Shown here piece after piece: positions 3,642 through 28,536 of a stretch of 39,424 nt of DNA (the stretch's first letter is position 1; every line of letters starts with the position of its first letter). Made by a program: the position numbers and the translations under genes. The notes below the pieces were generated by a model. It saw nothing but the letters and a program-made list of their open reading frames with translations, made no database searches and was not told the DNA's origin. This stretch comes from Polaribacter sp. (lineage in GTDB: Bacteria > Bacteroidota > Bacteroidia > Flavobacteriales > Flavobacteriaceae). Where the stretch lies: contig JALQZD010000395.1 of assembly GCA_023258495.1 (NCBI GenBank), positions 1-39,424 on the forward strand, read 5' to 3'.

Positions 3642-3652
3642 ACCTAGTAATT

Positions 3653-7301: not shown

Positions 7302-7315
7302 CGAAAACCTTTTCG
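7302..7315. promoter_or_regulatory. Probable LacI-family operator before the GH65 operon
   Basis: CGAAAACCTTTTCG, two perfect 6-base half sites (CGAAAA/TTTTCG) around CC, lies between the LacI stop and the GH65 start, about 100 bases before the GH65 ATG. It matches the palindrome before susC at all but one position. Binding by the adjacent LacI protein is inferred. Confidence 0.65.
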
Positions 7316-7317
7316 AA

Positions 7318-8634: not shown

Positions 8635-11600
8635 ATGAAAAATAACTTACTCAAGAAACTTTTAATACTGCCTGTCTTTTTATTGACAGTGGGTATGATG
8701 TATGGTCAAACAGTTGTCAAAGGAGTTGTTTCAGATAGTTCTGGAACCCTGCCTGGAGTATCTGTTGTGGAAAAAGGATCAACAAATGGTACACAGACTG
8801 ATTTTAATGGAAGCTACAGTATTACACTGAAATCTTCAAATGCAACATTGGTCTTTAGCTATCTGGGATACAAAACTCAAGAAGTTGCTGTAGATGGTAA
8901 AAATACCATTAATGTAACGCTAGTTGAAGATTCTACTCAATTAGATGAGATTGTGGTAATTGGTTATGGTACAACCACGGTTAAAGATGCTACCGGAGCC
9001 GTTACTTCTGTTAGCGCTGCTGAATTTAACAAAGGGGTCATTACTTCTCCTGAACAATTAATTCAAGGAAAAACTGCAGGGGTACAGATTACCCAAACAA
9101 GTGGTGAGCCTGGGGCAGGAGTTAATATTCGAATTCGAGGAACTAACTCAGTTCGTGCAAATAATAATCCATTATTTGTTGTAGATGGAATTCCATTAGC
9201 AGAAGGCTCTAATACAGCGGGAACAGATGTACCTGGAGTAGGGGCAAACCCATCAAAAAACCCATTAATATTCTTAAATCCGAATGATATTGAAAGCATT
9301 AGTATTTTGAAAGATGCTTCTGCAACAGCTATTTATGGATCTAGAGGTGCGAATGGTGTGGTAATTATCACTACAAAATCTGGGAAAGCTGGGAAAGACT
9401 CTTTTGAATACACTTCACAATTTAGTTTTTCAAACCCAGCAAAAACGTTTGATTTACTAACCGCACAAGAATATTTAAGTGAAAGTGCAAGATTAGGATT
9501 TAATGCAAACGATAGAGATTTTGGTAACATTACAGATTGGCAAGATGTCATATACAGAAATTCGACATCAGTAACTCAGAACTTTGCATATAATAAAGGT
9601 TACAAGTCAGGGAGCCTGAGAGCTTCTATGGGACTTTCAAACCAGCAAGGAATCGTGGAAAAATCACAATTAAAAAGATTTGATCTTCGTTTAAATTGGC
9701 AACAAAGACTTCTCAAAGACAAATTGAAGTTGACGTTCCAAGGAACAATTTCGGATGTAGACGATCAGACACCTCCGCTAGCAGGGACTGCTGGTTTTCA
9801 AGGAGATTTAATTGGATCGGCTTATGCAGCTAACCCAACATGGTCATCTGATCCTACCTTCGACAATACTGGAGGTTTAATTAATCCTGCAAACTTACTA
9901 GCGAATACACAGAATACTACCGATACCAATCGTCTTTTATTTAGCCTTGGTGCAGACTATCAATTAACTGAAAATATTTCTGCAAATGTAAAATTTGGAT
10001 ATGACAAATCGAATGCTGATACTAGAGGTGTGAGTAATTCAAACATTGTTGCTATTGGAGGTGGTATTCAAGGTAATGGTAGAGGAACTTATAACGATTT
10101 TGAATTTACAAATTCATTGTTAGAAGCTACCATGAATTATAAGAAGTCCACTAAAAATTCTACTTTGGATGTGCTATTAGGATTCTCTTATCAAAAGTTT
10201 GATCGTAAAGGAACTAACGCTCAAGGATGGGGCTTTAATACGACAGATTTAGATGCAATGGGTAATGTTCTTTCAAGTGCAACCAATAGTGTAGCCTCTC
10301 AAATTACTGGAGATTATCAGCAATTTGCTTACGCAACTGCATTCCAGGGAGGTAATATTGGTGCTGGTAACGTTTTTGTAACAAGACTTCAAGACGGATT
10401 ACCTATTGATTTCGTGAACCTTACAACACCTTCAGACTTAAGAGCACTGGCAGTTGATACGTTTGATAATTATGACGAATTACAATCATTCTTTGCGAGA
10501 GTAAACTATAGTCTATTCGATAAATACTTACTTACTGCTACATTCAGAGCAGATGGTTCTACTGCCTTTGGAGCAGGAAATCAATACGGATATTTCCCTT
10601 CAGGAGCTTTTGCATGGAAATTAACTGAAGAAGATTTCATTCCAGATAATGTTTCTACCTTAAAGTTGAGAATCAATGCAGGACTTACAGGAAACCAAGA
10701 AGGTGTTGGTTATGGTAATGCCGTAAGAAGAACGAGATTTAATGGTATTGGTATTAATGAAGCAGGAGAAGTTGTTGTTCCAGGTACTGGTGTTGTTGCT
10801 TTTGAGAATCAAGACTTAAAGTGGGAAAGCACATTCCAATATGGAGCTGGTATTGATTTCGGTTTCAATAATGATCGTTTGAGAGGTACAATTGACTACT
10901 ATAACAAAAGTACAAGAGACTTATTGTTCTTGATTCAATCTGCGCAACCTGCGATTCAGCCATTCCAATTTCAAAATTTACCAGACTCTAAAATTATAAA
11001 CAGAGGTATTGAATTTGCTTTGGGATACGATTTTGTACAAGGAGACGAATTTACTTGGGATGCTGACTTTAATATTGCATACAACTACAATAATGTAGAA
11101 TCATTAAGTGGGGAGTATATTTCTGGAGCAATTAACGGGCAAGGATTATCAGGTGCTTTTGCTCAAAATTTAGCACAAGGACAACCACTGTTCTCGTGGT
11201 ATGTTAGAGACTTTAGAGGATTTGATGCTCAAGGACAGCCTGTGTATAGAAATGGAGGGGATCCTTTATTTGTAGGAAAGAGTGCTTTACCTACAATCAC
11301 TGGAGGTTTATCTACAAGTGCTACCTATAAAAACTGGAGCTTTAATGCTTACTTTACAGGGCAGTTTGGACACTACATTTACAATGCAACACAGAATGCA
11401 TTCTTTACAGCAGGTTCCTTTGCTTCGGGTAGAAATGTACTAGCATCTACACTTACAAGCGGAGAATCTTTGAACGCTGCTGCGGATCCAAGTACTAGAT
11501 TTTTGGAAAAAGGAGATTTTGTACGATTACAGACATTATCTGCATCCTACAATGTTCCTATGAAAGAATCTTCTTGGTTTGACTCAGTACAATTAACATT

Positions 11601-11754
11601 AACAGGACAAAACTTACTTCTATTTACTGGTTATTCAGGTTTAGATCCAGAAGTAAGTAGTAGAACTGATGGAGGACTACCTACGTTAGGAATTGATTAT
11701 GGAGCTTTCCCAAATCCAAGAACCTTTACGTTTGGTATTAACGCAAAATTTTAG
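8635..11754 (+). CDS. SusC/RagA-family TonB-dependent outer-membrane transporter
   Basis: A 1,039-residue TonB-dependent transporter. After a signal peptide (MKNNLLKKLLILPVFLLTVG, mature from about GQTVVKG) come a carboxypeptidase-regulatory-like domain (about 26-110), a TonB-box-like segment ahead of the plug (LDEIVVIGYG), the plug with the SusC signature (IRIRGTNSV and PLFVVDGIPL, about 120-250), and a 22-strand barrel ending TFTFGINAKF. It pulls oligosaccharides through the outer membrane using TonB energy, together with the SusD lid encoded six bases downstream. The LacI-type palindrome before it suggests control together with the GH65/GH32 operon. The hydrolases in the locus point to small glucosides or fructosides as cargo; this is inference. 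Confidence 0.96.
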   Translation: MKNNLLKKLLILPVFLLTVGMMYGQTVVKGVVSDSSGTLPGVSVVEKGSTNGTQTDFNGSYSITLKSSNATLVFSYLGYKTQEVAVDGKNTINVTLVEDSTQLDEIVVIGYGTTTVKDATGAVTSVSAAEFNKGVITSPEQLIQGKTAGVQITQTSGEPGAGVNIRIRGTNSVRANNNPLFVVDGIPLAEGSNTAGTDVPGVGANPSKNPLIFLNPNDIESISILKDASATAIYGSRGANGVVIITTKSGKAGKDSFEYTSQFSFSNPAKTFDLLTAQEYLSESARLGFNANDRDFGNITDWQDVIYRNSTSVTQNFAYNKGYKSGSLRASMGLSNQQGIVEKSQLKRFDLRLNWQQRLLKDKLKLTFQGTISDVDDQTPPLAGTAGFQGDLIGSAYAANPTWSSDPTFDNTGGLINPANLLANTQNTTDTNRLLFSLGADYQLTENISANVKFGYDKSNADTRGVSNSNIVAIGGGIQGNGRGTYNDFEFTNSLLEATMNYKKSTKNSTLDVLLGFSYQKFDRKGTNAQGWGFNTTDLDAMGNVLSSATNSVASQITGDYQQFAYATAFQGGNIGAGNVFVTRLQDGLPIDFVNLTTPSDLRALAVDTFDNYDELQSFFARVNYSLFDKYLLTATFRADGSTAFGAGNQYGYFPSGAFAWKLTEEDFIPDNVSTLKLRINAGLTGNQEGVGYGNAVRRTRFNGIGINEAGEVVVPGTGVVAFENQDLKWESTFQYGAGIDFGFNNDRLRGTIDYYNKSTRDLLFLIQSAQPAIQPFQFQNLPDSKIINRGIEFALGYDFVQGDEFTWDADFNIAYNYNNVESLSGEYISGAINGQGLSGAFAQNLAQGQPLFSWYVRDFRGFDAQGQPVYRNGGDPLFVGKSALPTITGGLSTSATYKNWSFNAYFTGQFGHYIYNATQNAFFTAGSFASGRNVLASTLTSGESLNAAADPSTRFLEKGDFVRLQTLSASYNVPMKESSWFDSVQLTLTGQNLLLFTGYSGLDPEVSSRTDGGLPTLGIDYGAFPNPRTFTFGINAKF

Positions 11755-11760
11755 AAAAAC

Positions 11761-13332
11761 ATGAAAAATTTATTTACAAGAATGAGAAAACTATTTCTAG
11801 CCATGTTTGCGATGGTAACAGTATTATCATGTACAGACTTAACAATAGAAGGTACAGATTCTTTATTGCAAGAAACTCCTGAATTTGAAGGAGTAGAAGA
11901 TGTTGCAGGATCTTTGACATCTGTTTACCAAGCAACATATGGAATGTTGGGAGACCAAGCAAACTTTTTTGCTTTGAATGAAGTAACTACGGACGAGACG
12001 TTAGTTCCAACGCGTGGAACAGACTGGAGTGATAATGGTATTTGGAGACAATTACATAATCACACCTGGAAACAGGATCACGGGTTTATACTGACAACTT
12101 GGAATCAATTGAATGGAAATGCATACAGGGCTACAGAAATTATTGATCCATTGAGTCAAGCAAGTGCGCAACAGGCTGCAGAAGCTAAATTTTTGCGAGC
12201 TTTTAATATGTATTTTGTGTTGGATTTCTGGGGAGTTGCTCCTTTTAGAAATGCAACTGACCCTGGTTCATCAATTCCTACAGTGTTGTCATCGCAAGAG
12301 GCGTATGATTTTATTGTTCAAGATTTGAACGAAGCTATTTCAGATTTACCTGCAGTAGGACCTAGTGCAGCAACAAGTCGTGCTTCTAAATCAGCTGCTC
12401 GATATTTGTTGGCCAAAGTAATGTTAAATAGCGAACGTTACACAGGTGCTGCACCTAATTATGGGCAAATTATAAGTTTGATTGATGGTATTACCGGTGA
12501 AGGCTATGCTTTAGCGGCAGATTACTTCAATATCTTTAATCCAGCTGTAGATACAGAAACTATTTGGTATGCTAACGAATCATTAGGTATTGGAAACCGT
12601 ATATGGAATGGACTACATTACAATATGACAACTCCAGATAATGGTGGTGGTGGTTGGAATGGTTTTTCTACGCTAGCTGAATTCTATGATTTATTTGAAG
12701 GAGATGCCAACCAAAATTATATGGGCTCTAATCAAGAAGAACGAAGAGGATGGGTGCCTGATGCAACTACAGCAGATAATACCTCAAACTGGGGAATTGG
12801 ATATGGGTTCTTACAAGGACAACAATACTCTGGTAGTGGTGCAGCTTTAACAGATAGATCTGGAAATCCATTAAGTTTTACAAAAGACTTAAGCCTTACC
12901 AATAGTAATGAAACTAATGGAATCAGAATTATTAAATATCATCCTAATCCAATGCCTCCAGGAGTCGCAGGCGGATCACAATCCTTTAGAGCACACGAGA
13001 TTATCTTTAGATATGCAGATGCTTTCTTAATGAAAGCAGAAGCTACCTTAAGAAATGGCGGTGATGCAACTGCAATGGTTAATCAGTTGAGAGCATTGCG
13101 TGGAGCGAGTGCATTAGCTAATGTATCTCTACAGGATATGATTGATGAAAGAGGTCGTGAATTATACTATGAGTTTTGGAGAAGAAATGATCTACTAAGA
13201 TTTGGACAGTTTACCAAAGATTGGGAGTATAAAGATCCAAGTGCTATTGGAGACGCGAATAGAAGATTATTCCCTATTCCATTAGCAGCCTTAGTATCAA
13301 ATCCAAATCTAGCACAAAACCCAGGATATTAA
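11761..13332 (+). CDS. SusD/RagB-family nutrient-binding lipoprotein
   Basis: A 523-residue surface lipoprotein that caps the SusC pore and captures substrate. The lipobox VLSC places the acylated Cys at residue 24. The tetratricopeptide-like core is recognisable at AEAKFLRAFNMYFVLDFWG and KSAARYLLAKVML. The C-terminal SusD hallmark is present (ELYYEFWRRNDLLRFGQF, then RRLFPIPLAALVSNPNLAQNPGY split over the last residues). It starts six bases after susC and is followed by a strong terminator, so the pair forms the basic transport unit. No SusE/F-like binding protein follows it. Confidence 0.95.
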   Translation: MKNLFTRMRKLFLAMFAMVTVLSCTDLTIEGTDSLLQETPEFEGVEDVAGSLTSVYQATYGMLGDQANFFALNEVTTDETLVPTRGTDWSDNGIWRQLHNHTWKQDHGFILTTWNQLNGNAYRATEIIDPLSQASAQQAAEAKFLRAFNMYFVLDFWGVAPFRNATDPGSSIPTVLSSQEAYDFIVQDLNEAISDLPAVGPSAATSRASKSAARYLLAKVMLNSERYTGAAPNYGQIISLIDGITGEGYALAADYFNIFNPAVDTETIWYANESLGIGNRIWNGLHYNMTTPDNGGGGWNGFSTLAEFYDLFEGDANQNYMGSNQEERRGWVPDATTADNTSNWGIGYGFLQGQQYSGSGAALTDRSGNPLSFTKDLSLTNSNETNGIRIIKYHPNPMPPGVAGGSQSFRAHEIIFRYADAFLMKAEATLRNGGDATAMVNQLRALRGASALANVSLQDMIDERGRELYYEFWRRNDLLRFGQFTKDWEYKDPSAIGDANRRLFPIPLAALVSNPNLAQNPGY

Positions 13333-13377: not shown

Positions 13378-13410
13378 AAAAGAGGTTGTTAAGTATTGAC
13401 AACCTCTTTT
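13378..13410 (+). terminator. Rho-independent terminator after susD
   Basis: A perfect 12-bp stem (13378-13389 with 13399-13410) with a 9-base loop and a T-rich right arm, 46 bases after susD. It separates susCD from the FG-GAP lipoprotein operon, which therefore needs read-through or its own promoter in 13411-13556. No clear -33/-7 pair was found in that stretch. Confidence 0.88.
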
Positions 13411-13556: not shown

Positions 13557-16500
13557 GTGTTACTAAGGAGTATTTATTTTGTTTTTTTTATAACGTTATT
13601 CTTTTCATGCGAGAGGGTAAAACCCTTGGATTTCAGCAGTCAATTTGAGTCCATATCATCAAAAAAAACAGGGATTAATTTTGTCAATACTATAAAAAAT
13701 ACACAATCCTTAAACATCCTTAATTACCTCTATTTTTATAATGGTGCAGGAGTTGCAACATCTGATTTTAATAATGATGGCCTACTCGATTTGTATTTTA
13801 CAGGAAATCAGGTCGCTGATAAGTTATACCTAAACAAAGGCAATTTTGAGTTTCAAGACATTACAGAGACTGCTCAAATTACTAATAATAAAGGCTGGAC
13901 GACAGGGGTTACAGTTGTAGATATTAATAATGATGGTCTACTCGATTTGTATATCTGTAAAGTAGGAGATTACAGAGGAATTAAAGGACACAACTTACTC
14001 TATATCAATCAAGGAACTAATGAGGAGGGAATTCCAACGTTCAAAGAGGAATCCAAAGGATATGGACTCAATATCCTATCATTTGCAACGCAAGCAGTCT
14101 TTTTTGATATGGACAAAGACAATGATTTGGATATGTTTTTATTGAATCATTCTGTCCATCCCAATAGTAATTATGGAAGAGGAGTTAAAAGAAAACAAAA
14201 AGATACATTGAGTGGAGATCGATTGTATGAAAATCAGAATGGTCGATTCAAAGATATAACCAAAAGCTCTGGCATCTTTCAAGGAAAAATTGGGTATGGA
14301 CTAGGGTTAGGAGTTAGTGATTTAAACAATGATTCGTACCCAGATATTTATGTTGGAAATGATTTCTTTGAAAATGATTATCTATATGCAAACAATAAAA
14401 ACAAAACATTTACAGAACTCATTCATCAAAATCCAAATAAATTAGGTCATACCACCCATTTTTCTATGGGGAATGATATTGCTGATCTAAATAATGATGG
14501 ATGGACTGATATTATTTCTTTAGATATGCTTCCTGAAAACATGGAAACTTACAAACAATCAGGAAAGGAATATGGGTATCAGACCTATTATAATTATATC
14601 AAAAATGGATATGCTCCGCAATTCATGCAAAATACATTGCATTTCAACAGGAAAAATTTTGATTTCTCAGAAACCGGCTATTTGAGCAATATTTCTGCAA
14701 CAGAATGGTCTTGGGCTCCCTTAATTGCTGATTTTGATAATGATGGCTATAGTGATATCTATATTACCAATGGAATATTAGGAGCTACCAACGATATGGA
14801 TTTTATCAATTTCATATCTGATAGAGAAATTCAAAAACAGCTGAACAAAAAATTTACAGACAAAGAATTACAACTCATTAAAAAAATCCCACAAAAGAAG
14901 GTGCCCAACTATTTTTTTAAAAATCTTCAAAACCGACAATTTGAAAATGTTTCAAATAAGTGGCTGTCTAACAATCCAAACTCGTATAGCCATGGCGCAG
15001 TATATAGTGATTTAGATAATGATGGCGATTTAGACATTGTTGTCAATAATACTAACAATCCAGCTTTTGTCTTAGAAAATAAAACAATACAAGCTACATC
15101 GGCGCCCAACGAAAAGGTACACTTTTTAAAAGTCAAATTTATAGGCCCACAGAACAATACATTCGGAATTGGAGCAAAAGTGATTCTTTATGCAGGCAAA
15201 AAATTATGGGTGAAAGAAAACTACACAACAAGAGGGTACTTGTCTGCTATTGCTCCTCAGCTACATTTTGGATTGGGCAAAACTCAGTCAATCGATTCTT
15301 TAAAACTGCTATGGTCGGATGGCAAGCAAGAATTACTAAAAAATATACGTGCGAATCAAACCCTTGAACTCAATTATAAAAATGCAACAGAAAACAATGC
15401 GATAACGGGAAGAAATCAGAAAATTTTATTACGGCCTGTGAACTCTATAATTCCTTTTAAACACAAGGAAAATAGTACGATAGCTTTTAATAGAGACCCT
15501 TTAATTCCTTATACATACTCAAATAACGGTCCAGATATATCCGTTGCAGATGTGAATAATGATGGTTTAAACGATCTGTTTATCTGTGGATCAAAAAAGC
15601 AATCTTCTGCGCTGTACCTTCAGAATGAACTTGGAGAATTTTCAGAAATTCAAAAACCCTTATTTGAACAAGATGCACTCAGCGAAGATGTTTCTAGTGT
15701 CTTTGGAGATATCAACAACGATGGATATCAAGACCTTATTGTAGTGAGCGGTGGAGATGAATTTAGAAAAGGAAAAGCCATTCAGCCTAGGCTATATGTA
15801 AATCATAAGGGGAATTTCATAAAAGATACAACACAATTTCAAACCATTGAAACCAATGCCTCTAAAGTAAAACTATTTGATTTTGATCATGATCATGATC
15901 TGGACGTATGGATTCTTTCTGATGTAAAACCGACAGAAATTGGAGAAATTCCTCAACAATTCATACTCGAAAATACTGGAGACGGGCAGTTTATTGATGT
16001 TACTGATAAAATTGCTCCAGAATTTTCAAGGATTGGGAATGCCAAAGACATTGTTTTTGAAGATGTAAACGAAGATGGGAAGAAAGATATAATCGTAGTA
16101 GGACATTGGATGCCGATTACTGTTTTTTTAAATGAAAACAATACATTCAAAAAGACAGTAATAAAAGGGATTGAAAAATCGAATGGTTGGTGGAATGTAA
16201 TTAAATCTGCAGATTTTGATCAAGATGGTGATATGGATTTTGTTATAGGAAACTGGGGCTTAAATTCCAGGCTAAAAGCTTCAAAAAGCGAACCTGTCAC
16301 CTTATATCATTACGATTTTGATTTGAATGGAAAAAAAGACCCTATCATTACGTATTACTTTGACGGAGAAGAAACAATTTTAACACCAAAGGAAGAATTA
16401 GAAAAACAATTACCATTTATCAAAAAGAAATATCTTACACATAAAGAGTACTCAAAAGCTTCTGTAAAAGAAATACTTTCTTCGTCCAGATTAAAAAAGG

Positions 16501-16880
16501 CAACCAAAAGAAAGGTGTCTCAATTAGCTACGGTTTATCTTGAAAATAGAGGGGACAATATGTTCATTCAGCACACGCTACCTTTTATGGGACAAATATC
16601 TTCGGTAAATGATATTCTAGTTTATGATTTTAATAGTGATGGCTTTTTAGACATTTTACTTGCAGGAAATAATTATGATATAAGCACACAATTAAGTAGA
16701 TTAGATGCCTCGAAAGGAGAAGTTTTTTTGAACAATCAAAAAGGGAATTTTTATTACGCAGATTATGAAATAAATGTTCCTAAAGTATCTAAATCTATGG
16801 ATACGATTACAACAAAAAAAGGAATGTATTTACTTGTAGGAAGAAACAATGATTCGATAGTAACCTACAATTTGAAATGA
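13557..16880 (+). CDS. FG-GAP/VCBS-repeat ASPIC/UnbV lipoprotein 1
   Basis: A 1,107-residue lipoprotein (lipobox LFFSC, Cys 18) with a GTG start at 13557. It contains 14 calcium-loop motifs of the type DxNxDGxxD (such as DFNNDGLLD and DINNDGLLD): seven before and seven after a central ASPIC/UnbV domain at about residues 536-605 (GIGAKVILYAGKK, then LHFGLG). This suggests two seven-bladed beta-propellers flanking the ASPIC segment, anchored to the outer membrane or cell surface. Such CRTAC1-like proteins are common next to SusCD pairs in Bacteroidota; their biochemical role is not established. It begins a tandem of three paralogues and is 18 bases ahead of the second. A near-exact 29-base internal repeat encodes two of its blades. 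Confidence 0.88.
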   Translation: MLLRSIYFVFFITLFFSCERVKPLDFSSQFESISSKKTGINFVNTIKNTQSLNILNYLYFYNGAGVATSDFNNDGLLDLYFTGNQVADKLYLNKGNFEFQDITETAQITNNKGWTTGVTVVDINNDGLLDLYICKVGDYRGIKGHNLLYINQGTNEEGIPTFKEESKGYGLNILSFATQAVFFDMDKDNDLDMFLLNHSVHPNSNYGRGVKRKQKDTLSGDRLYENQNGRFKDITKSSGIFQGKIGYGLGLGVSDLNNDSYPDIYVGNDFFENDYLYANNKNKTFTELIHQNPNKLGHTTHFSMGNDIADLNNDGWTDIISLDMLPENMETYKQSGKEYGYQTYYNYIKNGYAPQFMQNTLHFNRKNFDFSETGYLSNISATEWSWAPLIADFDNDGYSDIYITNGILGATNDMDFINFISDREIQKQLNKKFTDKELQLIKKIPQKKVPNYFFKNLQNRQFENVSNKWLSNNPNSYSHGAVYSDLDNDGDLDIVVNNTNNPAFVLENKTIQATSAPNEKVHFLKVKFIGPQNNTFGIGAKVILYAGKKLWVKENYTTRGYLSAIAPQLHFGLGKTQSIDSLKLLWSDGKQELLKNIRANQTLELNYKNATENNAITGRNQKILLRPVNSIIPFKHKENSTIAFNRDPLIPYTYSNNGPDISVADVNNDGLNDLFICGSKKQSSALYLQNELGEFSEIQKPLFEQDALSEDVSSVFGDINNDGYQDLIVVSGGDEFRKGKAIQPRLYVNHKGNFIKDTTQFQTIETNASKVKLFDFDHDHDLDVWILSDVKPTEIGEIPQQFILENTGDGQFIDVTDKIAPEFSRIGNAKDIVFEDVNEDGKKDIIVVGHWMPITVFLNENNTFKKTVIKGIEKSNGWWNVIKSADFDQDGDMDFVIGNWGLNSRLKASKSEPVTLYHYDFDLNGKKDPIITYYFDGEETILTPKEELEKQLPFIKKKYLTHKEYSKASVKEILSSSRLKKATKRKVSQLATVYLENRGDNMFIQHTLPFMGQISSVNDILVYDFNSDGFLDILLAGNNYDISTQLSRLDASKGEVFLNNQKGNFYYADYEINVPKVSKSMDTITTKKGMYLLVGRNNDSIVTYNLK

Positions 16881-16898
16881 ATAAAATAAGAATGACAG

Positions 16899-19800
16899 AT
16901 GCAAAGAATGTTTGATAGAAAGAATATTCAAATCAGAATTTATCTAATCGCTTACATAATAAGTTTTCTTAACTTTTTTTCTTGTGCAGAAAAAACACAA
17001 GATAAGCAAACACTTTTTACTGAAATCCCTTCTTCTCAGACCGGAATTGACTTTGTGAATAAAGTAAAAAACCAAAAAAAGTTTAATATTTTCAAATACC
17101 GAAATTTCTACAACGGCGGAGGCGTTGCTATTGGAGACATCAATAATGATGGTTTGGCAGACATCTATATGACAGCCAACATGGGTCCCAATAAACTCTA
17201 TTTAAACAAAGGTAATTTTACCTTTGAAGATATTTCTGCCTCTGCAGGCGTAGAAGGAAATAAACCTTGGTCTACAGGAGTAAATATGGTAGACATTAAC
17301 AACGACGGACTTCTAGATATTTATGTGAGCAATGCTGGAAACTTAGAAGGAAATAATCACGATAACGATCTCTATATTAATAACGGGGATTTAACCTTTA
17401 CACAAAAAGCACAAGAATACAATCTAGCAAAAACAGGATTTTCTACCCATGCTACTTTTTTTGATTATGACAAAGATGGCGATTTAGATGCCTACATTCT
17501 CAACAACAGTAACATTCCCGTAAGCAGTTTAGGATATGCTGAACAGCGAAAAGTAAGAGCACAAGACTGGAAAAATGTTCCTCACATATTTAGAGGAGTT
17601 GGAGACATGCTTCTAAGAAATGATGGTGACGTTTTTACAGATGTGAGTGAAGAAGCAGGAATTTACGGTAGTTTGATAGGCTTTGGTCTGGGTGTAATGA
17701 TTAGCGATATTAATCATGATTTATACCCCGATATCTATGTTTCTAACGACTTTTACGAACGAGATTATCTGTATATCAACAACCAAGATGGAACCTTTAC
17801 AGAGGAGATTAAAAATTGGGTATCTCGTTTGCCTCTTTCTGCGATGGGGGTTGATATGGCAGACATTAACAACGATGGATTGGCAGATATTTTCATTACG
17901 GATATGCTTCCTGAAGCTGACCAAAGAGTAAAGTCGGTTATGGAATTTGAAGGATATGATGTATTTAAACTCAAACAAAGTAAAGATTTTTATCAGCAAT
18001 ACATTCAAAATACGTTACAGTTAAATAATGGAAATGAAAGTTTTTCTGAAATAGCCTATTTCAGTGGAGTTTCTGCTACAGATTGGAGTTGGGCAGGTTT
18101 GTTATTTGATATGGATAATGATGGATATAGAGATATATATATTACAAACGGGATCAATCATGACCTTACAGATTTAGATTTTGTGGATTTCTTTGCGAAT
18201 GAAATCATCCAAAAAATGGCGCTTACCGGTAAAAAAGAAACCATAGACTCCATTATTGATAAAATGCCAGTTGTTCCACTTCCTAATTATACCTATAAGA
18301 ACAATAAAAACCTCACTTTCGACAATGTTTCGAAGCCCTGGGGTTTGGGGAAACCTAGCAGATCAAATGGTGCAGCATATGGCGATTTAGACAATGATGG
18401 TGATTTAGATCTCGTAGTGAATAATGTGAATATGAAAGCCTTTGTTTATAAAAACAATGCTTCCGAAATGAAAAATCACAATTACATTAAAATAAAATTT
18501 AAAGGGCAAGAAGGAAATCAATTCGCTATTGGAACAAAAGTGAAACTCTTTTTTGACAATCAAATCATTTTTCAAGAACTCATACCATCGAGAGGATTTC
18601 AATCTTCAATGCAATACCCTATGACCATTGGGTTAGGAAATACAAAGGAAATAGATTCTATACATATCATTTGGCCTAATGATGCTTTTACTCGACTTAG
18701 CAATGTAAAATCGAACCAAACATTGAACTTGTCTCAAAAAGATGCATCCCAAACATTCAAACCTCAGAAGAAGAAATTTACGCCGTCCTTATTGAGCGAA
18801 GTAAAAAATAAAAATGTAGTTAAGCATACAGAAAATTTATATAACGACTTCAATTATGAAGGATTGATCAGTAAAAAATTATCACAAGAAGGCCCTGCTT
18901 TAGCTACTGCCGATATTAATGGCGATGGAAATGAAGATATTTTTATAGGAGGCGCAAACGGACAATCTGCTACACTATATTTACACAAAGGAAAGGGTAT
19001 CTTGAGTAAAATTCCTCAGAAGGTTTTTGAAGATGATAAATCATATGAAGACACAGCAGCAACATTTTTAGATGTAGATAATGACGGAGATCAAGATCTT
19101 GTTGTAGGCTCTGGAGGAAATGAAGTAGGACAGAACAAAATGGAAACCCGATTATATCTCAACAATGGTAAAGGAAGGTTTACTCGCTCAGAAACAAAAC
19201 TTCCCTCTACAGGAGATAATGTAGCTATTATTACATCTTATGATTTTGACAATGATGGAGATGAAGACCTGTTTATTGGTGCTAGAAGTGTGGTAGGAAC
19301 CTATGGAATTGACCCCAAACATTTATTATTAGAAAATGATAAGGGGAATTTCAAGGATGTGACAGATCGAAAAGGATTTGCACTGAAAAAAGCAGGAATG
19401 ATCACTGATGCCACCTGGGCAGACACAAACAATGATGGAAGAAAAGATTTGATCACCGTTTCAGAATGGGGAACACCTAAACTATTTCTCAATGGTAGAA
19501 GAGGTTCTCTGAAAGCTTCTAATTCCTCATTAGATAGTTTGTATGGATGGTGGGGTGCTATCAAAGAAACAGATATAGACGGTGATGGAGATATTGATTT
19601 GATACTTGGGAATCAGGGTAAAAATGCACACTATACACCCACTAAAAACAGACCGATGAAGTTATGGATCAATGACTTTGATAATAATGGTACTATTGAG
19701 CAGATTACAACGCAATCTTTTGATAACAAAGATTACCCGCTCCATCAGAAAAAAGAAATTGTGGCGCAATTGGTATCACTTAAAAAACAAAACTTAAAAG

Positions 19801-20255
19801 CCTCAGAATATGCAAAAAAAACTGTTCAAGAGCTTTTCTCTAAAGAAATTATAGACAATTCTATTGTAAAACAAATAAATACACCTAGCTCAGTAATCGC
19901 TATCAATCAAGGAAATGGCAACTTTACCATTAAAGAATTACCAGATAGAATTCAACTTTCTTGTGTATGCGATATTGAATCTATAGATGTAAATAACGAT
20001 GGCAATACGGACATTATCATGGGAGGGAACAACTATGAATACAAACCCCAGTATTCTCGATTAGACTCTGGTTATGGAGATGTATTGCTTAACGATGGAA
20101 ACGCTAATTTCACATGGCAAGATTATCAAAAAAGTGGCTTTTTTGTGAAAGATGAAATCAAGCATCTTAAGGTGTTTAAAGACCGTAAAGGAAGTCAGTT
20201 TGTCATCACAGCAATTAACGATAATAACCCTAGAGTATTTAAAATCAATGAATAG
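16899..20255 (+). CDS. FG-GAP/VCBS-repeat ASPIC/UnbV lipoprotein 2
   Basis: A 1,118-residue paralogue of the preceding gene. The lipobox is FFSC (Cys 29 from the first ATG; an ATG three codons later is an equally good start). It again shows seven Ca-loop motifs (DINNDGLAD, DYDKDGDLD, DLDNDGDLD and others), an ASPIC/UnbV domain at about 544-610 (FAIGTKVKLFFDNQ, MTIGLG), and seven more loops. Near the C-terminus it shares with its paralogues a segment that reads QYSRLDSGYGDVLLNDG here. It should be exported and membrane-anchored with the active surface in the periplasm or outside. Its stop overlaps the start of the third paralogue by eight bases (ATGAATAG). Function is unknown beyond a likely calcium-stabilised binding scaffold. 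Confidence 0.88.
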   Translation: MQRMFDRKNIQIRIYLIAYIISFLNFFSCAEKTQDKQTLFTEIPSSQTGIDFVNKVKNQKKFNIFKYRNFYNGGGVAIGDINNDGLADIYMTANMGPNKLYLNKGNFTFEDISASAGVEGNKPWSTGVNMVDINNDGLLDIYVSNAGNLEGNNHDNDLYINNGDLTFTQKAQEYNLAKTGFSTHATFFDYDKDGDLDAYILNNSNIPVSSLGYAEQRKVRAQDWKNVPHIFRGVGDMLLRNDGDVFTDVSEEAGIYGSLIGFGLGVMISDINHDLYPDIYVSNDFYERDYLYINNQDGTFTEEIKNWVSRLPLSAMGVDMADINNDGLADIFITDMLPEADQRVKSVMEFEGYDVFKLKQSKDFYQQYIQNTLQLNNGNESFSEIAYFSGVSATDWSWAGLLFDMDNDGYRDIYITNGINHDLTDLDFVDFFANEIIQKMALTGKKETIDSIIDKMPVVPLPNYTYKNNKNLTFDNVSKPWGLGKPSRSNGAAYGDLDNDGDLDLVVNNVNMKAFVYKNNASEMKNHNYIKIKFKGQEGNQFAIGTKVKLFFDNQIIFQELIPSRGFQSSMQYPMTIGLGNTKEIDSIHIIWPNDAFTRLSNVKSNQTLNLSQKDASQTFKPQKKKFTPSLLSEVKNKNVVKHTENLYNDFNYEGLISKKLSQEGPALATADINGDGNEDIFIGGANGQSATLYLHKGKGILSKIPQKVFEDDKSYEDTAATFLDVDNDGDQDLVVGSGGNEVGQNKMETRLYLNNGKGRFTRSETKLPSTGDNVAIITSYDFDNDGDEDLFIGARSVVGTYGIDPKHLLLENDKGNFKDVTDRKGFALKKAGMITDATWADTNNDGRKDLITVSEWGTPKLFLNGRRGSLKASNSSLDSLYGWWGAIKETDIDGDGDIDLILGNQGKNAHYTPTKNRPMKLWINDFDNNGTIEQITTQSFDNKDYPLHQKKEIVAQLVSLKKQNLKASEYAKKTVQELFSKEIIDNSIVKQINTPSSVIAINQGNGNFTIKELPDRIQLSCVCDIESIDVNNDGNTDIIMGGNNYEYKPQYSRLDSGYGDVLLNDGNANFTWQDYQKSGFFVKDEIKHLKVFKDRKGSQFVITAINDNNPRVFKINE

Positions 20256-23200
20256 AGCTATCTGTATCGGAATAATCCTGTTGAGCATGGTTCGTTGTAA
20301 GCCTGAAGGGAGTGTATTCAAAAATGTACCTCCTAAACAATCGGGAGTTGATTTTATCAATCAGGTCACAGCAACAGATGAACTCAACATCTTGGACTAT
20401 CTTTACTTTTACAATGGTGGTGGTGTTTCTATTGGTGATATCAATAATGATGGCTTACCCGATATTTATCTAACAGCTAATCAATTAAAAAATAAACTCT
20501 ATTTGAACAAAGGAAATCTTCAATTTGAAGACATTACCACAACAGCAGGAGTTGCAGGAAATAGTACTTGGAATACTGGTACGGTAATGGCAGATGTAAA
20601 TAATGACGGGTTCTTAGATATTTATGTGTGTACAGTTGTTGGAATTAATGGCTTTGACGGCCATAATGAGCTGTTCATCAATAATGGAGATAACACATTT
20701 TCTGAACAATCTGCTAAATACGGTTTGGATTTTGATACCTACAGTTCCTCAGCAGCCTTTTTTGACTATGATTTGGATGGTGATTTAGATATGTACCTAC
20801 TAAACCATGCGGTGCATACTCCAGAATCCTTTGGGAAAGTTGATTTACGTAACCGTCGTACGTACGAAACAGGAGATCGTTTAATGCGAAATGATGGCAC
20901 TACCTTTACAGATGTAAGTGAAGAAGCAGGAATTTACGGAGGGATCAATGGATACGGATTGGGTTTAAATATTTCTGATTTCAATAAAGATGGTTATCCT
21001 GATATTTATGTAGGGAATGATTTTCATGAAGATGATTACTACTATATAAATCAAGGTGATGGTACATTTAAGAACGAACTGACAGCATATTTCGGACACA
21101 CTTCTCGTTTTTCTATGGGAAATGATGCTGCCGATATCAACCATGACGGATGGCCCGATTTGATGTCTTTAGATATGTTACCTCAAGAAGAAAAAAGTAT
21201 CAAATCTACCGAAGGAGACGACAGCTATCAGACACTACAGTTACGAACAAAACAATTTGGTTACCACTATCAGTATACGCGTAACATGCTATACATCAAT
21301 CAGAAAAACACTCCATATCTGGAAACGGCTTTATTAAGTGGTGTTGCAGCTACCGATTGGAGTTGGAGTGTCTTAATTGAAGACTATAATCAAGATGGAA
21401 ATCAAGACATGTTTATTTCTAACGGAATTCCTAAACGACCCAATGATTTAGACTTTATCAAATTTGTATCGAGTGAAAAAATTCGAAAAAAAATAAATCA
21501 GACCAAACTTGTAGATCAAGAAGCGCTGAATATGATGCCCTCTGGTAAAACACACAATTACGTTTACGAAGGAACCGGAACACTTGCATTTAATGATCAA
21601 TCAGGAAAGTGGTTGGTAAAAGACAACTTAGTTTCTGGGGCTACTGCCTTTGGTGATCTAGATAATGATGGCGATTTGGATTTGGTTATTAATAACTTAA
21701 ACGAAAGTGCATTAATTCTTGAAAACAAAACAAATGCCTCTGCAAACTATCTAAAGCTTGCGTTCAAGAGTACAGAACAAAACGCTAAAGGTATTGGAAC
21801 AAAAGTGTATAGCTATCACAATGGAATTTTACAATACAAAGAACTTACTACAACCAGAGGATTTCAGGCAAGCTCAGAACCCATTGTACATTTTGGTTAT
21901 GGACAACATACAACAATAGATTCTATAAAAATTGTATGGCCCAATCAAAAAGAACAGATGCTGAGAAGTATAGCTGTCAATCAAACTCTATTGATTGATG
22001 ATAATAAAGCTCAAAAAAATAATCAGAATGTTTATGAATCATCAGCAAACCTCTTTACAAAAGTAGAGGATAATTTAGGGATTGACTTTGTACATAAAGA
22101 GGATGCATACGTAGATTTCCATCGTCAACGTTTAATTCCTTACAAAGTTTCTGAACAAGGGCCAGCACTTGCTGTTGGTGACTTAAATCATGATGGTACA
22201 GAAGATATCTTTTTGGGGAGCTCTCATCGTCAACCTTCCAGAATTTATCTGCAAAAAGAAGGACTTTTTCAACTTCAAAAATCAAAAACAGTCTATCAGG
22301 ATTCCATTGCAGAAGATGTTTCCGCTGCAATAATGGACATCAATAATGATAAAAAATCTGACCTGCTGGTAGCAACTGCAGGATCTGTTTTCCCAGAAAA
22401 TCACATATCAATGAGTACGCGTCTATATCTGCAAGAAGATGCTCAATTTGGTAAAGCCAAAACTATTGAAGACATTTTTGGAAACAGTTCAATCATTATT
22501 TCAGATGAAGAATATGTATTTGTTGGAGGGCATACGGTAACTAATAAGTATGGAGAAATTCCAAATTCATATATCCTTCGTAAAGAAAATGGAACACTCA
22601 AAAAAATTCAAGAGTTTCCTTTAGGAATGATTACTGATGCCATTTGGTCTGACTTTAATCAGGATGGGAAAAAAGATTTGATTGTTGTAGGAGAATGGAT
22701 GACTCCCTTATTTTTGGAACATCAACAAGGCACATTTGTAGAACAAGAAGTTTCCGGTGAGCTTTTAAGTGGTCTTTGGCAAAGTATTATCTCTTACGAC
22801 ATCGATCAAGACGGAGATATCGATTATTTATTAGGAAACTGGGGAACGAATTCAAAACTTACCGCCTCATCTAAATTTCCTCTGAAGCTATATTACAACG
22901 ATTTTAATAAAGATGGAGTGTATGACCCTATTGTTACGATCAATAAGCATGGTGATGAGTACGCTATAACTACCTTTGATGATTTAGCGTTACAAATGCC
23001 TGATCTCAGAAAAAAATACAATACTTATCAAGATTTTGCAGGACAAACCGTAGTTCAAATCTTTGGAAAAGAAGTTATAGAAAAATCAGAAACATTTGAA
23101 GTACAAACACTTGCATCTGGATATTTAAAAAATGAAAAAGGGAACTTCTATTTTGTTCCTTTTCAGGAAGAACTTCAATTAGCTCCTATTAAAACATTTG

Positions 23201-23460
23201 TAAAGTACGATTTTGATCATGATGGAAAGCAAGAAGTATTGACAGCAGGAAACTTCTTTGGAGTAATTCCTTATCACGGGCGGTTTGACTCGTTTCCTGG
23301 AGCATTGATTCAATCTGATGCACAGATTCAATTAGGGAATACCTTAGGACTTGACTTCCAGTTTAAATCTGCACGACATCTTACCATTATTCATATCAAC
23401 AAGAAACCTTACTTACTAGCGACTTTCAATAATGAAAAAGTACAACTCTATGAATTTTAA
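20248..23460 (+). CDS. FG-GAP/VCBS-repeat ASPIC/UnbV lipoprotein 3
   Basis: A 1,070-residue third paralogue. The frame is open to 20152, but the ATG at 20248 gives a short lipoprotein signal (MNRAICIGIILLSMVRC, Cys 17), so that start is chosen; it overlaps gene 2 by eight bases. Seven Ca-loop motifs precede the ASPIC/UnbV domain (about 512-580, KGIGTKVYSYHNG) and only six follow. The expected tenth loop is replaced by SDEEYVFVGG near 22500, so one blade has probably lost its calcium. A block of 35 bases matches gene 2 with one difference (20905-20939), which suggests recent duplication or gene conversion. Role as for its paralogues: probably a surface or periplasmic binding scaffold, not established. 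Confidence 0.88.
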   Translation: MNRAICIGIILLSMVRCKPEGSVFKNVPPKQSGVDFINQVTATDELNILDYLYFYNGGGVSIGDINNDGLPDIYLTANQLKNKLYLNKGNLQFEDITTTAGVAGNSTWNTGTVMADVNNDGFLDIYVCTVVGINGFDGHNELFINNGDNTFSEQSAKYGLDFDTYSSSAAFFDYDLDGDLDMYLLNHAVHTPESFGKVDLRNRRTYETGDRLMRNDGTTFTDVSEEAGIYGGINGYGLGLNISDFNKDGYPDIYVGNDFHEDDYYYINQGDGTFKNELTAYFGHTSRFSMGNDAADINHDGWPDLMSLDMLPQEEKSIKSTEGDDSYQTLQLRTKQFGYHYQYTRNMLYINQKNTPYLETALLSGVAATDWSWSVLIEDYNQDGNQDMFISNGIPKRPNDLDFIKFVSSEKIRKKINQTKLVDQEALNMMPSGKTHNYVYEGTGTLAFNDQSGKWLVKDNLVSGATAFGDLDNDGDLDLVINNLNESALILENKTNASANYLKLAFKSTEQNAKGIGTKVYSYHNGILQYKELTTTRGFQASSEPIVHFGYGQHTTIDSIKIVWPNQKEQMLRSIAVNQTLLIDDNKAQKNNQNVYESSANLFTKVEDNLGIDFVHKEDAYVDFHRQRLIPYKVSEQGPALAVGDLNHDGTEDIFLGSSHRQPSRIYLQKEGLFQLQKSKTVYQDSIAEDVSAAIMDINNDKKSDLLVATAGSVFPENHISMSTRLYLQEDAQFGKAKTIEDIFGNSSIIISDEEYVFVGGHTVTNKYGEIPNSYILRKENGTLKKIQEFPLGMITDAIWSDFNQDGKKDLIVVGEWMTPLFLEHQQGTFVEQEVSGELLSGLWQSIISYDIDQDGDIDYLLGNWGTNSKLTASSKFPLKLYYNDFNKDGVYDPIVTINKHGDEYAITTFDDLALQMPDLRKKYNTYQDFAGQTVVQIFGKEVIEKSETFEVQTLASGYLKNEKGNFYFVPFQEELQLAPIKTFVKYDFDHDGKQEVLTAGNFFGVIPYHGRFDSFPGALIQSDAQIQLGNTLGLDFQFKSARHLTIIHINKKPYLLATFNNEKVQLYEF

Positions 23461-24793
23461 ATTGATAAAAAAACGATTCTTACTTGCTGTATTACTTGTA
23501 AATTTTCTTTTCTCATGTAAGAACGAAGAACCTATTGATATAGAAACCAATGATTTTTTTAAAAGTGTAGATAAGGTAACCGAAATTATGGTACACGATA
23601 TCTTTTCGCCACCCGTTGCAAGTCGTGTATATGTGTACCCTAATATTGCTGCCTATGAAATTATTGCTCAAAAGGAAGATTACAACTCTTTGGCAGGGCA
23701 ACTAACAAATTTAACAGCAATTCCAAAAATTGAACAGCCCAATGTTCATATAGAAATGGCTGCACTCATGGCACATTTGGAATTGAGTAAAAAACTTATT
23801 TTCTCTGAAGATAAACTCATGACCTACAGAGACAGCCTATATTCTGTTTGGGAAGACAAAAATTCTACACAATTTAAAGCTACCAAATCATATGCAACTC
23901 AAGTCGTAAGTCACATTGAAGAATGGATGAATCAAGACCATTATGCACAGACGCGTACCATGCCAAAATATACGGTAAATACCAATGATCCATCCAGATG
24001 GCAACCTACTCCTCCTGCCTATATGGATGCTATAGAACCTAATTGGAATAAGATACGTCCTATGGTGTTGGATTCTGCTTCACAATTCAAACCCGAAAAA
24101 CACCCAGAATTTTCACTTAAAAAAAATACTGCTTTCTTTAAGGAACTTACAGAGGTATATACGGTAAGTAAGGAGATTACAAAAAAAGGAGACAATTCAG
24201 AAGAAATACAAATCGCCCAATTTTGGGATTGCAATCCTTATGTGTCTGTTACAAGAGGACACTTGATGTTTGCTTCCAAGAAAATAACTCCAGGCGCTCA
24301 TTGGATTGGAATTACCAAAATAGCTTGTCAGAAAAATACTTCAAATTTTGACGATACCGTTGCAACTTTTACAAAAACATCTATTGGGATTTTCGATGGA
24401 TTCATTAGTTGTTGGGATGAAAAATATAGGTCTAATTTGATCAGACCAGAAACATTAATCAATGAGCATATAGACGAAGAGTGGAAACCGATTCTACAAA
24501 CCCCTCCTTTTCCTGAATACACGAGCGGGCATTCTGTAGTTTCTGGTGCTGCCTCTACAATACTCACCTCAATATTTGGCGATAATTTTGCTTTTGATGA
24601 TACTTCTGAAATTCCTTATGGGTTACCTGTTCGTTCGTTCCCATCTTTTAACAAAGCTGCAGACGAAGCTGCTATGAGTAGATTATATGGTGGAATTCAT
24701 TACATGGCTGCTATTGTTAACGGATTATCACAAGGAAGAAATATAGGGAGTTTGGTCGTGAATAATGTACAATTAAAACCAACGAAGGAATAA
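23450..24793 (+). CDS. Vanadium-dependent haloperoxidase-like PAP2 lipoprotein
   Basis: A 447-residue lipoprotein (lipobox FLFSC, Cys 23) of the PAP2/vanadium haloperoxidase superfamily. The oxyanion-binding residues are all present: KX6RP (K325, R332), the central SGH (S359, H361) in PPFPEYTSGHS, and SRX5H (R411, H417) in SRLYGGIHY. The Asp/Glu often found four residues after the last His is Ala here. The fold can bind vanadate (halide oxidation) or act as a phosphatase; sequence alone does not decide. The ATG at 23450 overlaps the third ASPIC gene by 11 bases; another ATG lies six codons earlier. Tight coupling to the three ASPIC lipoproteins suggests they act together in the periplasm. Confidence 0.82.
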   Translation: MNFKLIKKRFLLAVLLVNFLFSCKNEEPIDIETNDFFKSVDKVTEIMVHDIFSPPVASRVYVYPNIAAYEIIAQKEDYNSLAGQLTNLTAIPKIEQPNVHIEMAALMAHLELSKKLIFSEDKLMTYRDSLYSVWEDKNSTQFKATKSYATQVVSHIEEWMNQDHYAQTRTMPKYTVNTNDPSRWQPTPPAYMDAIEPNWNKIRPMVLDSASQFKPEKHPEFSLKKNTAFFKELTEVYTVSKEITKKGDNSEEIQIAQFWDCNPYVSVTRGHLMFASKKITPGAHWIGITKIACQKNTSNFDDTVATFTKTSIGIFDGFISCWDEKYRSNLIRPETLINEHIDEEWKPILQTPPFPEYTSGHSVVSGAASTILTSIFGDNFAFDDTSEIPYGLPVRSFPSFNKAADEAAMSRLYGGIHYMAAIVNGLSQGRNIGSLVVNNVQLKPTKE

Positions 24794-24808: not shown

Positions 24809-25717
24809 TTGAAAAAAAGGATTCTGTATATCATTGCACTAGGCGCCATTGCTCTTTTAAGCTGGTACTTTTTTCTTAGAAGTTATCATTATTCTGTAAG
24901 TTTTAAAACAAAACATACACCAGGTGCCATCTATTTAGAATTCCAGAATGGAAGAAATAATTCTAAAGTTCAAAATGAAGAGTTCTTAATCGATAGATAT
25001 CCAACCGCTATTCGGTTTTCGGAAATCTACGAGAATAATGATTCGCTTATTGAAATAAATTGGGAATTTGAGCGTGTCAATGAATCCATTTCACGTGTCT
25101 CTGCAAAGTTTACAGATCATAACAATTATTGGAAACAAAAAATGATTGTCCCTTTTGTAAAAAACGATTTTGTGAGATTTAGTATTTCCAAAGCAAAAGA
25201 ACAATTAGGAATACTTACTAAACATCAGAAGCAGTATAAAATTTCTAAAGTAACAGAAGCACAAATTCCAGAGAGATATTGTGCGTGTACTTCTGTGAAA
25301 GATGCTACTATGCAGACCAAAGCAAATAAAATGATGTTCTATAATAAAACTTTGGTTGATTTTTTTCGAGCGAATGACTTTAAGATTAAAGATTTTCCAC
25401 TTTTAGATGTCACTCATTGGGATTTTGCCACAGAAGCTTTGAATTTTGATTTTTGTTTTCCAGTACCAAAACAAGAAAATTATAAAAATATCGGTGATAT
25501 TGTTTTCAAAACAATTCCCGCACAAAAAGCCTTGAAAATTACATTTAATGGCAACTATATTATTTCTGATCGAAGTTGGTTTTCTATAGTAGAATATGCT
25601 GCAAAAGAGGGTATAGAAATCAGTCCTTTACCTATTGAGTTCTATTTTAATGACCCTCATTCTGGTGAAAATGAGATTAATTGGGTTACAGAAGTTTATA
25701 TGCCTATTTTGGAATAG
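24809..25717 (+). CDS. Membrane-anchored protein with GyrI-like effector-binding domain
   Basis: A 302-residue protein with a TTG start, one N-terminal hydrophobic helix (about residues 6-23, KRILYIIALGAIALLSWYFF) and a C-terminal GyrI-like/AraC effector-binding domain (about 145-300). The domain end is typical: LPIEFYFNDP followed by WVTEVYMPI. The middle (about 27-140) may be SRPBCC-like, as in related Bacteroidota proteins, but this is weak. There is no DNA-binding domain, so it is not a classical regulator; it more likely binds a small hydrophobic or cationic compound at the outer face of the inner membrane. It follows the haloperoxidase-like gene by 15 bases and precedes the transporter by 66. 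The actual ligand is unknown. Confidence 0.65.
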   Translation: MKKRILYIIALGAIALLSWYFFLRSYHYSVSFKTKHTPGAIYLEFQNGRNNSKVQNEEFLIDRYPTAIRFSEIYENNDSLIEINWEFERVNESISRVSAKFTDHNNYWKQKMIVPFVKNDFVRFSISKAKEQLGILTKHQKQYKISKVTEAQIPERYCACTSVKDATMQTKANKMMFYNKTLVDFFRANDFKIKDFPLLDVTHWDFATEALNFDFCFPVPKQENYKNIGDIVFKTIPAQKALKITFNGNYIISDRSWFSIVEYAAKEGIEISPLPIEFYFNDPHSGENEINWVTEVYMPILE

Positions 25718-27322: not shown

Positions 27323-28536
27323 AGCATTTAGGAATAAAGGCAGCGCTCTTCTTAAACTATTTTGTGTTTGCTGCATTATTGAATAGTGTTGGAATTTTAG
27401 TAGAACGTTCTCAGACGATCTATGGAGTTGCAAAACCTGAAGCTGCTGTGCTCGAATTATTCAAAGATCTCACTATTGCTTTTGTGTCTTTTCTAGTGGG
27501 TTCAATTTTACCAAAACTAGGATATAAGAAAGCCATGCTTATCGGTTTGGCAATTGTCTTTTTCGGATGCATAGGAATGTATTATGGGAATTCATTTTGG
27601 TCAGTGAAACTATTATTTCTCTGTACTGGGATGAGTTTTGCTATTGTAAAAGTATCTGTTTATGCCCTTATTGGATACGTAACAGATTCTAAAAAAGGTC
27701 ACAGTTTATTGATGAGTTGGGTAGAGACTATTTTTATGGTGGGTATTATTTTCATGTACCTAGTCTTCCCCTTATTTTATGATGATACAGATCCTAATGG
27801 ATGGTTAAGAGGTTATGTATTAATGGCTTTTATCATCCTGATATCATTTTTTATTCTTCTGTTTTCGAAGTTTGATATTTCAGTAGAAAGATCAAATTCT
27901 TCCATAAGAGAAGATATCTTGAAGATGTTGCAACTCTTCACAAAACCCGCTATTTGGATCTTTGCGTTGTTCGCTTTCTTTTATGTAATGACCGAGCAGG
28001 GTATTATGACATGGTTACCAACATTTAATAAAGATATTCTTCACATCACACCAAAATTGGCAACACAGATGGCAGTGATTTTGATGTCTTCTTTTGCAAT
28101 AGGAAGATTCCTTACCGGGCTTTTGGTGAAATATATCAAATGGATTTATATTGCTATTTCTGGGCTCATTCTTGCTGCTATTTTAGTCGTATTGGTATTA
28201 CCGATGGCAAATCAGGTAGACAACAATACGATAAACACTGTGGCAGAACTTCCTTTGGTATCATTTTTATTTCCATTGATAGGATTGTTCCTCGCTCCAT
28301 TATATCCTTTAGTAAGCTCAACGGTATTATCCTCAACTAAAAAAGAAGAGCACAGTGCCTTGGCAGGAATCTTAACATTCTCCTCAGCCATTGGAGGTAC
28401 CTTAGGCTCGCTGATTATTGGATATTTGTTTGATGTACTTGGCGGGAATAAGGTGTTTTACCTATCGCTATTACCCATGTCTATTATCCTTATAGCCTTG
28501 TTTTTCTTGAATAGATTGACATCAAAAGAAGTATGA
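27319..28536 (+). CDS. MFS transporter of unknown substrate
   Basis: A 405-residue protein with about twelve hydrophobic segments and an MFS pattern (LGYKKAMLIG after helix 2; YVTDSKKGHSLLMSWVETIF in the middle; SALAGILTFSSAIGGTLGS near the end). It resembles the sugar-transporting FucP/TsgA-like branch, but no substrate motif is recognised. It overlaps the SLC45-type gene upstream and the trehalase downstream by four bases each (ATGA), so all three should be translated in a coupled way. It may take up glucose or a second disaccharide, or export surplus sugar. Confidence 0.75.
   Translation: MKHLGIKAALFLNYFVFAALLNSVGILVERSQTIYGVAKPEAAVLELFKDLTIAFVSFLVGSILPKLGYKKAMLIGLAIVFFGCIGMYYGNSFWSVKLLFLCTGMSFAIVKVSVYALIGYVTDSKKGHSLLMSWVETIFMVGIIFMYLVFPLFYDDTDPNGWLRGYVLMAFIILISFFILLFSKFDISVERSNSSIREDILKMLQLFTKPAIWIFALFAFFYVMTEQGIMTWLPTFNKDILHITPKLATQMAVILMSSFAIGRFLTGLLVKYIKWIYIAISGLILAAILVVLVLPMANQVDNNTINTVAELPLVSFLFPLIGLFLAPLYPLVSSTVLSSTKKEEHSALAGILTFSSAIGGTLGSLIIGYLFDVLGGNKVFYLSLLPMSIILIALFFLNRLTSKEV

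Follow-up and report, generated by a model that had tools for sequence, protein, structure and literature searches.

Iodine uptake by Arenibacter sp. C-21 requires oxygen, calcium and glucose, for which a source of hydrogen peroxide (H2O2) can substitute; a haloperoxidase has been proposed to take part, and the C-21 genome encodes at least five homologues of the structure 4USZ (PMC5064120). The enzyme behind 4USZ, and behind 4CIT, is Zg-VIPO1 of Zobellia galactanivorans, and the available text of PMC10427571 reports that ZgvIPO1, used there as a control, had iodoperoxidase activity only. In this study, we analysed a 39,424-nucleotide stretch of DNA from Polaribacter sp. (assembly GCA_023258495.1, contig JALQZD010000395.1, forward strand), the whole of which we call the window, and in which a homologue of this enzyme is encoded directly after three ASPIC/FG-GAP lipoproteins and downstream of a SusC/SusD (SusCD) pair. 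We name the three lipoproteins ASP1, ASP2 and ASP3, and the enzyme, a PAP2-fold lipoprotein of the iodoperoxidase type, VIPO. These genes form a conserved set, defined by the identities of the proteins, the enzyme family, its conserved active site, the gene order and the co-occurrence of the genes across genomes, and it is likely that SusCD, the ASPs and VIPO work together in a single process. Enzymes of this type, SusCD systems and ASPIC proteins were each already known; a description of their combination was not found in the literature searched, which excluded the main enzyme paper, Fournier 2014.

The enzyme and the proteins encoded beside it

VIPO is encoded at 23450..24793 from its likely start (the open reading frame begins at 23432). 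Over residues 14-449 it matches the vanadium-dependent haloperoxidase of Zobellia in 4CIT/4USZ with an E value of 1e-204, and 287 of 436 aligned residues (66%) are identical to 4CIT. Residues K331, R338, S365, G366, H367, R417 and H423, which we take to be vanadate ligands and vanadate-site residues, are all seven the same as those of 4CIT, and none of them varies among the 113 distinct homologues scoring above 450 bits; one of four weaker homologues has Ala at the Gly position. PAP2 is the sole Pfam family reported for VIPO, and the third motif of PAP2 acid phosphatases reads SRx5Hx3D; this motif is incomplete in VIPO, where S416-R417 and H423 are followed by Ala instead of Asp at position 427. 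The initial annotation had proposed either oxidative modification or dephosphorylation of a substrate. Because VIPO shares 66% identity with a vanadium iodoperoxidase of known structure, its sequence strongly favours an oxidative function and an iodoperoxidase-type enzyme, whereas dephosphorylation was rejected, given that the nearest solved homologue is an iodoperoxidase and that the motif Asp is replaced by Ala427. The annotation's remark that no function was established went too far for the enzyme type, the Zobellia homologue being the iodoperoxidase standard in the available text of PMC10427571. An NCBIfam search assigned neither VIPO nor ASP2 to a family, and for ASP1 and ASP3 it yielded only a sub-threshold domain match.

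ASP1 (13557..16880, with a GTG start), ASP2 (16899..20255) and ASP3 (20248..23460 from its likely start; open reading frame from 20152) precede VIPO, all four on the forward strand. The three tandem ASPIC lipoproteins of about 1,100 residues and the PAP2 lipoprotein had been described in these terms from the outset, including the overlap of the PAP2 gene with the third ASPIC gene, which is 11 bp with the likely starts. Each ASP carries one central UnbV_ASPIC domain and FG-GAP repeats (FG-GAP_3 in ASP1), far above the Pfam curated cut-offs. ASP2 contains seven DxDxDG-type (calcium-type) loops before the ASPIC domain and seven after it, counted in the sequence, which fits two seven-bladed propellers. 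The AlphaFold model of ASP2 is confident (predicted local distance difference test, pLDDT, 89.5; predicted template modelling score, pTM, 0.89), and its top match in the PDB is mouse CRTAC1 (9etn; E value 5.1e-25; template modelling score 0.74 by target length), the matches ranked below it being generic propellers with poor superposition. ASP1 matches mouse CRTAC1 by sequence (E value 7.9e-15). Loops and model together support, for ASP2, the double propeller that the annotation had predicted, with a CRTAC1-like fold.

In a tree that joins the three ASPs of the window to 231 distinct ASP proteins, the high-scoring ASP1 (50), ASP2 (66) and ASP3 (76) proteins each form an exclusive group, with support of 1.0, 1.0 and 0.25, the last a weak node. 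By this phylogeny, ASP1-3 are separate, old and diverged paralogue lineages. The triplet is incomplete at some loci, where ASP1 or ASP2 is missing.

A lipobox pattern is present in 104/113 VIPO, 42/49 ASP1, 57/65 ASP2 and 69/75 ASP3 proteins. A loose export-signal pattern follows the Cys in 47 of 104 VIPO, 25 of 57 ASP2, 18 of 69 ASP3 and 3 of 42 ASP1 proteins, compared with 2-4% of control windows. We propose that the proteins of the set may sit at the cell surface, possibly in a physical complex.

The genes are tightly packed. Counted from the likely starts of the lipoproteins, ASP1 and ASP2 are 18 bp apart, ASP2 overlaps ASP3 by 8 bp, ASP3 overlaps VIPO by 11 bp, and 15 bp separate VIPO from a gene for a GyrI-like protein (24809..25717, forward strand; Pfam GyrI-like, 46.6 bits). 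ASP1 through the GyrI-like gene looks like a transcription unit of its own, and the GyrI-like gene belongs to the set as an additional member, a homologue being found in 70 of the 80 loci described below. Its product has one N-terminal helix and is probably membrane-anchored; in the model (pLDDT 89.1), this single helix is followed by a first domain and by a second domain of the small-molecule-binding GyrI type, which matches closthioamide-, rhodamine- and drug-binding proteins in the PDB. In agreement with these matches, the available text of PMC5684135 describes GyrI-type folds that bind aromatic small molecules.

Upstream, also on the forward strand, lie the genes for a SusC-type TonB-dependent outer-membrane transporter (8635..11754; Pfam Plug and CarbopepD_reg_2; NCBIfam OMP_RagA_SusC, 673.7 bits against a cut-off of 368) and a SusD-type lipoprotein lid (11761..13332; Pfam SusD_RagB, 78.2 bits, and SusD-like_3). 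The 224 bp between SusD and ASP1 contain a strong terminator-like hairpin (13378..13410, forward strand; a 15-pair stem, then a T-rich tail; -17.3 kcal/mol; z -4.4, with 0 of 200 shuffles equally stable), and SusCD are therefore probably a separate transcription unit in the window.

Conservation of the set across loci and genomes

A scan of genome contigs gave 438 stretches encoding a relative, of which we examined the best 80. A same-strand ASP gene lies upstream of VIPO in 74; the ASP stop is 60 bp or less from the estimated VIPO start in 67 of these loci, 75, 79 and 83 bp from it in three (below 100 bp in 70/80) and 2-6 kb away in four. Six loci have no upstream ASP: L026, L090, L099 and L102 have real flanks, and L054 and L067, starting less than 250 bp from VIPO, allow no judgement. 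In relatives of the window species, 17 of the 20 VIPO genes with 44% identity or more are preceded, on the same strand and by no more than 12 kb, by an ASPIC gene, where random placement would give about 0.17 at most; the count is 0/3 for VIPO homologues of 38-39% identity. The association that the initial annotation had seen in one locus is thus non-random. It does not extend to ASPIC proteins as a whole, a wider tie that we rejected because 33 of the 63 ASPIC domains encoded by VIPO-bearing relatives are found upstream of VIPO at 12 kb or less.

We extended 20 of the 80 loci, picked because ASP1 sat at the flank edge. Nineteen of these have both SusC and SusD upstream, directly in 12 and with one to three intervening genes in seven (symporter, xylulokinase-like or xylose-isomerase-like); in L138, neither SusC nor SusD was seen.

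In a survey of 397 Flavobacteriaceae genomes, with cut-offs of E <= 1e-100 for VIPO and E <= 1e-299 for ASP2 orthologues, VIPO was found in 175 genomes and ASP2 in 106 (118/237 and 76/237 when counted per genus), so that the function of the set would be widely shared within a major group of bacteria associated with algae. VIPO is present in 105 of the 106 ASP2-bearing genomes, sometimes unlinked (Fisher p 4e-47, kinship ignored). For 107 ASP2 copies, VIPO is one gene downstream on the same strand in 91, within 25 kb in seven, on another contig in eight and absent in one; the counts of linked copies are lower bounds, since they draw on 150 listed VIPO places. Three of the eight unlinked copies sit at a short contig's end, and we counted as support for coupling that G402, G384, G320 and G466, with VIPO on another contig, keep the ASP genes with the GyrI-like gene.

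The coupling was also examined more widely. A phylum-wide ASP2 search found three genomes of genus g152 at 1,419-1,459 bits; all three, picked for this strong match, encode VIPO (59-60%), in the order SusC-SusD-ASP-ASP-VIPO-GyrI, whereas the same search gave no ASP2 match for five g152 genomes that lacked VIPO in the class survey described next. An 11-genome test found, beyond the three g152 genomes, VIPO in G913, G1040, G941 and G824 and none in G143, G836, G929 and G981. In the class survey, 40 of 295 genomes encoded VIPO relatives, 38 of them outside Flavobacteriaceae. One locus from each of 20 of these 38 genomes, chosen from the head of the list but not consecutively, showed a same-strand ASP upstream of VIPO in 13 and a SusC gene in 11; six had no ASP, and one had a partial ASP, downstream only.

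The flanks of the set in the window are those of the initial annotation, with SusC/SusD at 8635-13332 and, downstream, sugar transporters and a trehalase at 25784-31543. The trehalose operon is a neighbour here and was rejected as a fixed partner: the adjoining sugar genes vary by lineage, and elsewhere the set is accompanied by xylose genes or by none that could be recognised as sugar genes. Trehalase, GH65, GH97 and xylose genes recur near the sets. An SSF gene beside some sets was considered as an iodide symporter and rejected for L090, the one member tested, which scored 793.7 bits as a sodium/glucose cotransporter and 90.7 bits as a sodium/iodide symporter; the window's own SSF gene was compared with Pfam and NCBIfam only.

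Other genes were seen around the sets. In L219, L221 and L222, a gene of about 690 codons directly precedes VIPO, the L219 product being a GH65 protein like that at 5169-7220 in the window. L225, L227 and L228 encode a haem/copper-monooxygenase-like protein between the SusC/SusD region and ASP (weak Pfam matches in the two members scanned, L225 and L228), and an AhpC/TSA-like protein is also part of the SusC-ASP-VIPO cluster of L225. A second type of set, SusC-SusD-ASP-(protein of about 200 residues)-ASP-ASP, occurs in L161, L162, L164, L167, L168, L169, L172, L177, L178, L224 and L226; the small protein, in its L162 member, is lipoprotein-like with no Pfam match. In 43 of the 80 loci, such as L026, L032 and L036, the region some 5.5 kb past VIPO encodes a member of a family of about 410 residues with HD and Pycsar-effector transmembrane domains (scanned in the L058 member), which is probably shared synteny. 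In the window itself, the reverse strand upstream of SusC (1403-8343, divergent) encodes a sugar transporter, GH32 and GH65 proteins, a LacI-type regulator and, by eye, a sugar-kinase-like open reading frame. A cluster at 36088-39133 encodes a Gfo/Idh/MocA protein weakly similar to glycoside 3-dehydrogenase (under the NCBIfam cut-off), a sugar-isomerase-type TIM barrel and, by eye, a small cytochrome-c-like lipoprotein (37552-38055), and possibly performs 3-keto-glycoside chemistry.

Possible roles of the set

Iodine capture is our first, tentative choice for the shared process of SusCD, the ASPs and VIPO. It is ranked first because of the uptake traits of Arenibacter C-21 and because VIPO and ASP genes occur in all five Arenibacter-named loci among the 80 (L043, L048, L082, L084 and L094; about 2 kb apart in L094). 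That the ASPs are rich in calcium-type loops, through which they may bind calcium, was counted towards the same role. In our model, SusC/SusD would form a TonB-driven gate, and ASP1-3, as calcium-type double-propeller lipoproteins, would serve as a capture or scaffold layer. VIPO, encoded straight after ASP3, would convert iodide to hypoiodous acid (HOI) or I2 with H2O2 at the cell surface; oxidised iodine or an iodinated carrier would be trapped by the assembly for import; and small reactive or aromatic products may be bound or quenched in the periplasm by the GyrI-like protein. The best-supported step, judging by homology, is the predicted formation of oxidised iodine from iodide and H2O2 by VIPO. 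A Sus-like outer-membrane assembly that traps oxidised iodine by means of its own iodide-oxidising enzyme is a reasonable possibility, somewhat short of probable; more doubtful is that SusCD, three calcium-dependent propeller lipoproteins and an iodoperoxidase constitute a machine importing oxidised iodine or an iodinated carrier.

Several observations weigh against this proposal. G143, the sole ASP2-bearing genome of the survey that lacks VIPO, has ASP1-3 genes and no VIPO even at 1e-20, and G836 and G981 have SusCD-ASP loci with no VIPO in the genome. Conversely, 70 VIPO genomes have no match at the strict ASP2 cut-off, and no upstream ASP was seen at the VIPO loci L181-L183. G097, the genome nearest to 4CIT (98%), encodes ASP1-3, VIPO and the GyrI-like protein with no adjacent SusCD, which were found in two other genomes of its genus. 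The terminator-like hairpin argues against a single transcript with SusCD, residues resembling the export signal are rare in ASP1 and less frequent in ASP3 than in VIPO and ASP2, and the recurrent sugar genes could indicate a sugar cargo. Finally, the C-21 uptake is a physiological observation with no transporter named, and C-21 is compared here through PMC5064120 only.

A close second alternative, itself rather unlikely in our estimate, is oxidative nutrient processing, in which the ASPs and SusCD would catch an organic substrate, such as an algal phenolic or a glycoside bearing an aromatic moiety, VIPO would oxidise or iodinate it via HOI for import, and the GyrI-like protein would bind an aromatic product. 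It accords with the mostly organic nutrients imported by SusCD systems and the surface lipoproteins assembled on SusCD (available text of PMC7618045), with aromatic small-molecule binding by GyrI-type folds (the PDB matches; PMC5684135, as far as its available text goes), with the sugar genes recurrent near the set and with the monooxygenase-like protein of L225, L227 and L228. However, the set has no constant catabolic gene, its sugar genes varying by lineage, and its core lacks a glycan- or phenol-processing enzyme.

We consider peroxide or halogen defence, ranked third, unlikely. Here VIPO would consume algal H2O2 and harm competitors with toxic HOI made at the surface, where the ASPs would hold it, and SusCD would be a nutritional neighbour. 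In the available text of PMC9296495, Zobellia vIPO3 is upregulated on Ascophyllum nodosum relative to alginate or maltose, alongside a haloacid dehalogenase, and is discussed as a response to algal defence; VIPO also stands alone in some genomes (L181-L183). Yet defence explains neither the keeping of three different ASPs nor the SusCD genes that precede them in 19 of the 20 extended loci. A PAP2 phosphatase in a trehalose or alpha-glucoside uptake locus, with no halogen chemistry, would suit the only Pfam family reported and a window that is a sugar locus, but is highly improbable in view of the iodoperoxidase as closest solved homologue, Ala427 in place of the phosphatase-motif Asp and the recurrence of the set at loci without trehalose genes.

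Comparison with described systems

Zg-VIPO1 shares with the VIPO of the window its active-site residues, a lipoprotein-type N terminus and 66% identity, and Zobellia-like genomes have the window's order ASP1-ASP2-ASP3-VIPO-GyrI. Zg-VIPO1 is known as a lone enzyme; neither a report of ASP or SusCD partners for it nor a description of the ASP-VIPO-SusCD set was found in the literature searched, whose coverage excluded the main enzyme paper, Fournier 2014. With the partners described here, the solved iodoperoxidase is placed in a gene set, and gene deletion becomes a way of testing both how iodine is taken up and what bacterial ASPIC proteins do. With the CRTAC1/ASPIC-UnbV FG-GAP family, ASP1-3 share FG-GAP repeats and an ASPIC domain; unlike CRTAC1, they are bacterial lipoproteins, have a second propeller half and occur in triplets.

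The SusCD utilisomes of Bacteroides for levan and dextran combine, in the available text of PMC7618045, a SusC/SusD pair with extra outer-membrane lipoproteins, as the set does, whereas for the set of the window a complex is putative. Were iodine capture by a halogen machine of this kind to prove true, it would extend SusCD transport beyond organic nutrients and explain in molecular terms, as has been lacking, how marine Flavobacteriaceae take up iodine. The likeness to Arenibacter sp. C-21 lies in the proposed haloperoxidase, the need for glucose or a source of H2O2, for oxygen and for calcium, and the 4USZ homologues, and makes the genes described here candidates for the uptake of iodine by Arenibacter, which is reported to depend on H2O2, glucose and calcium.

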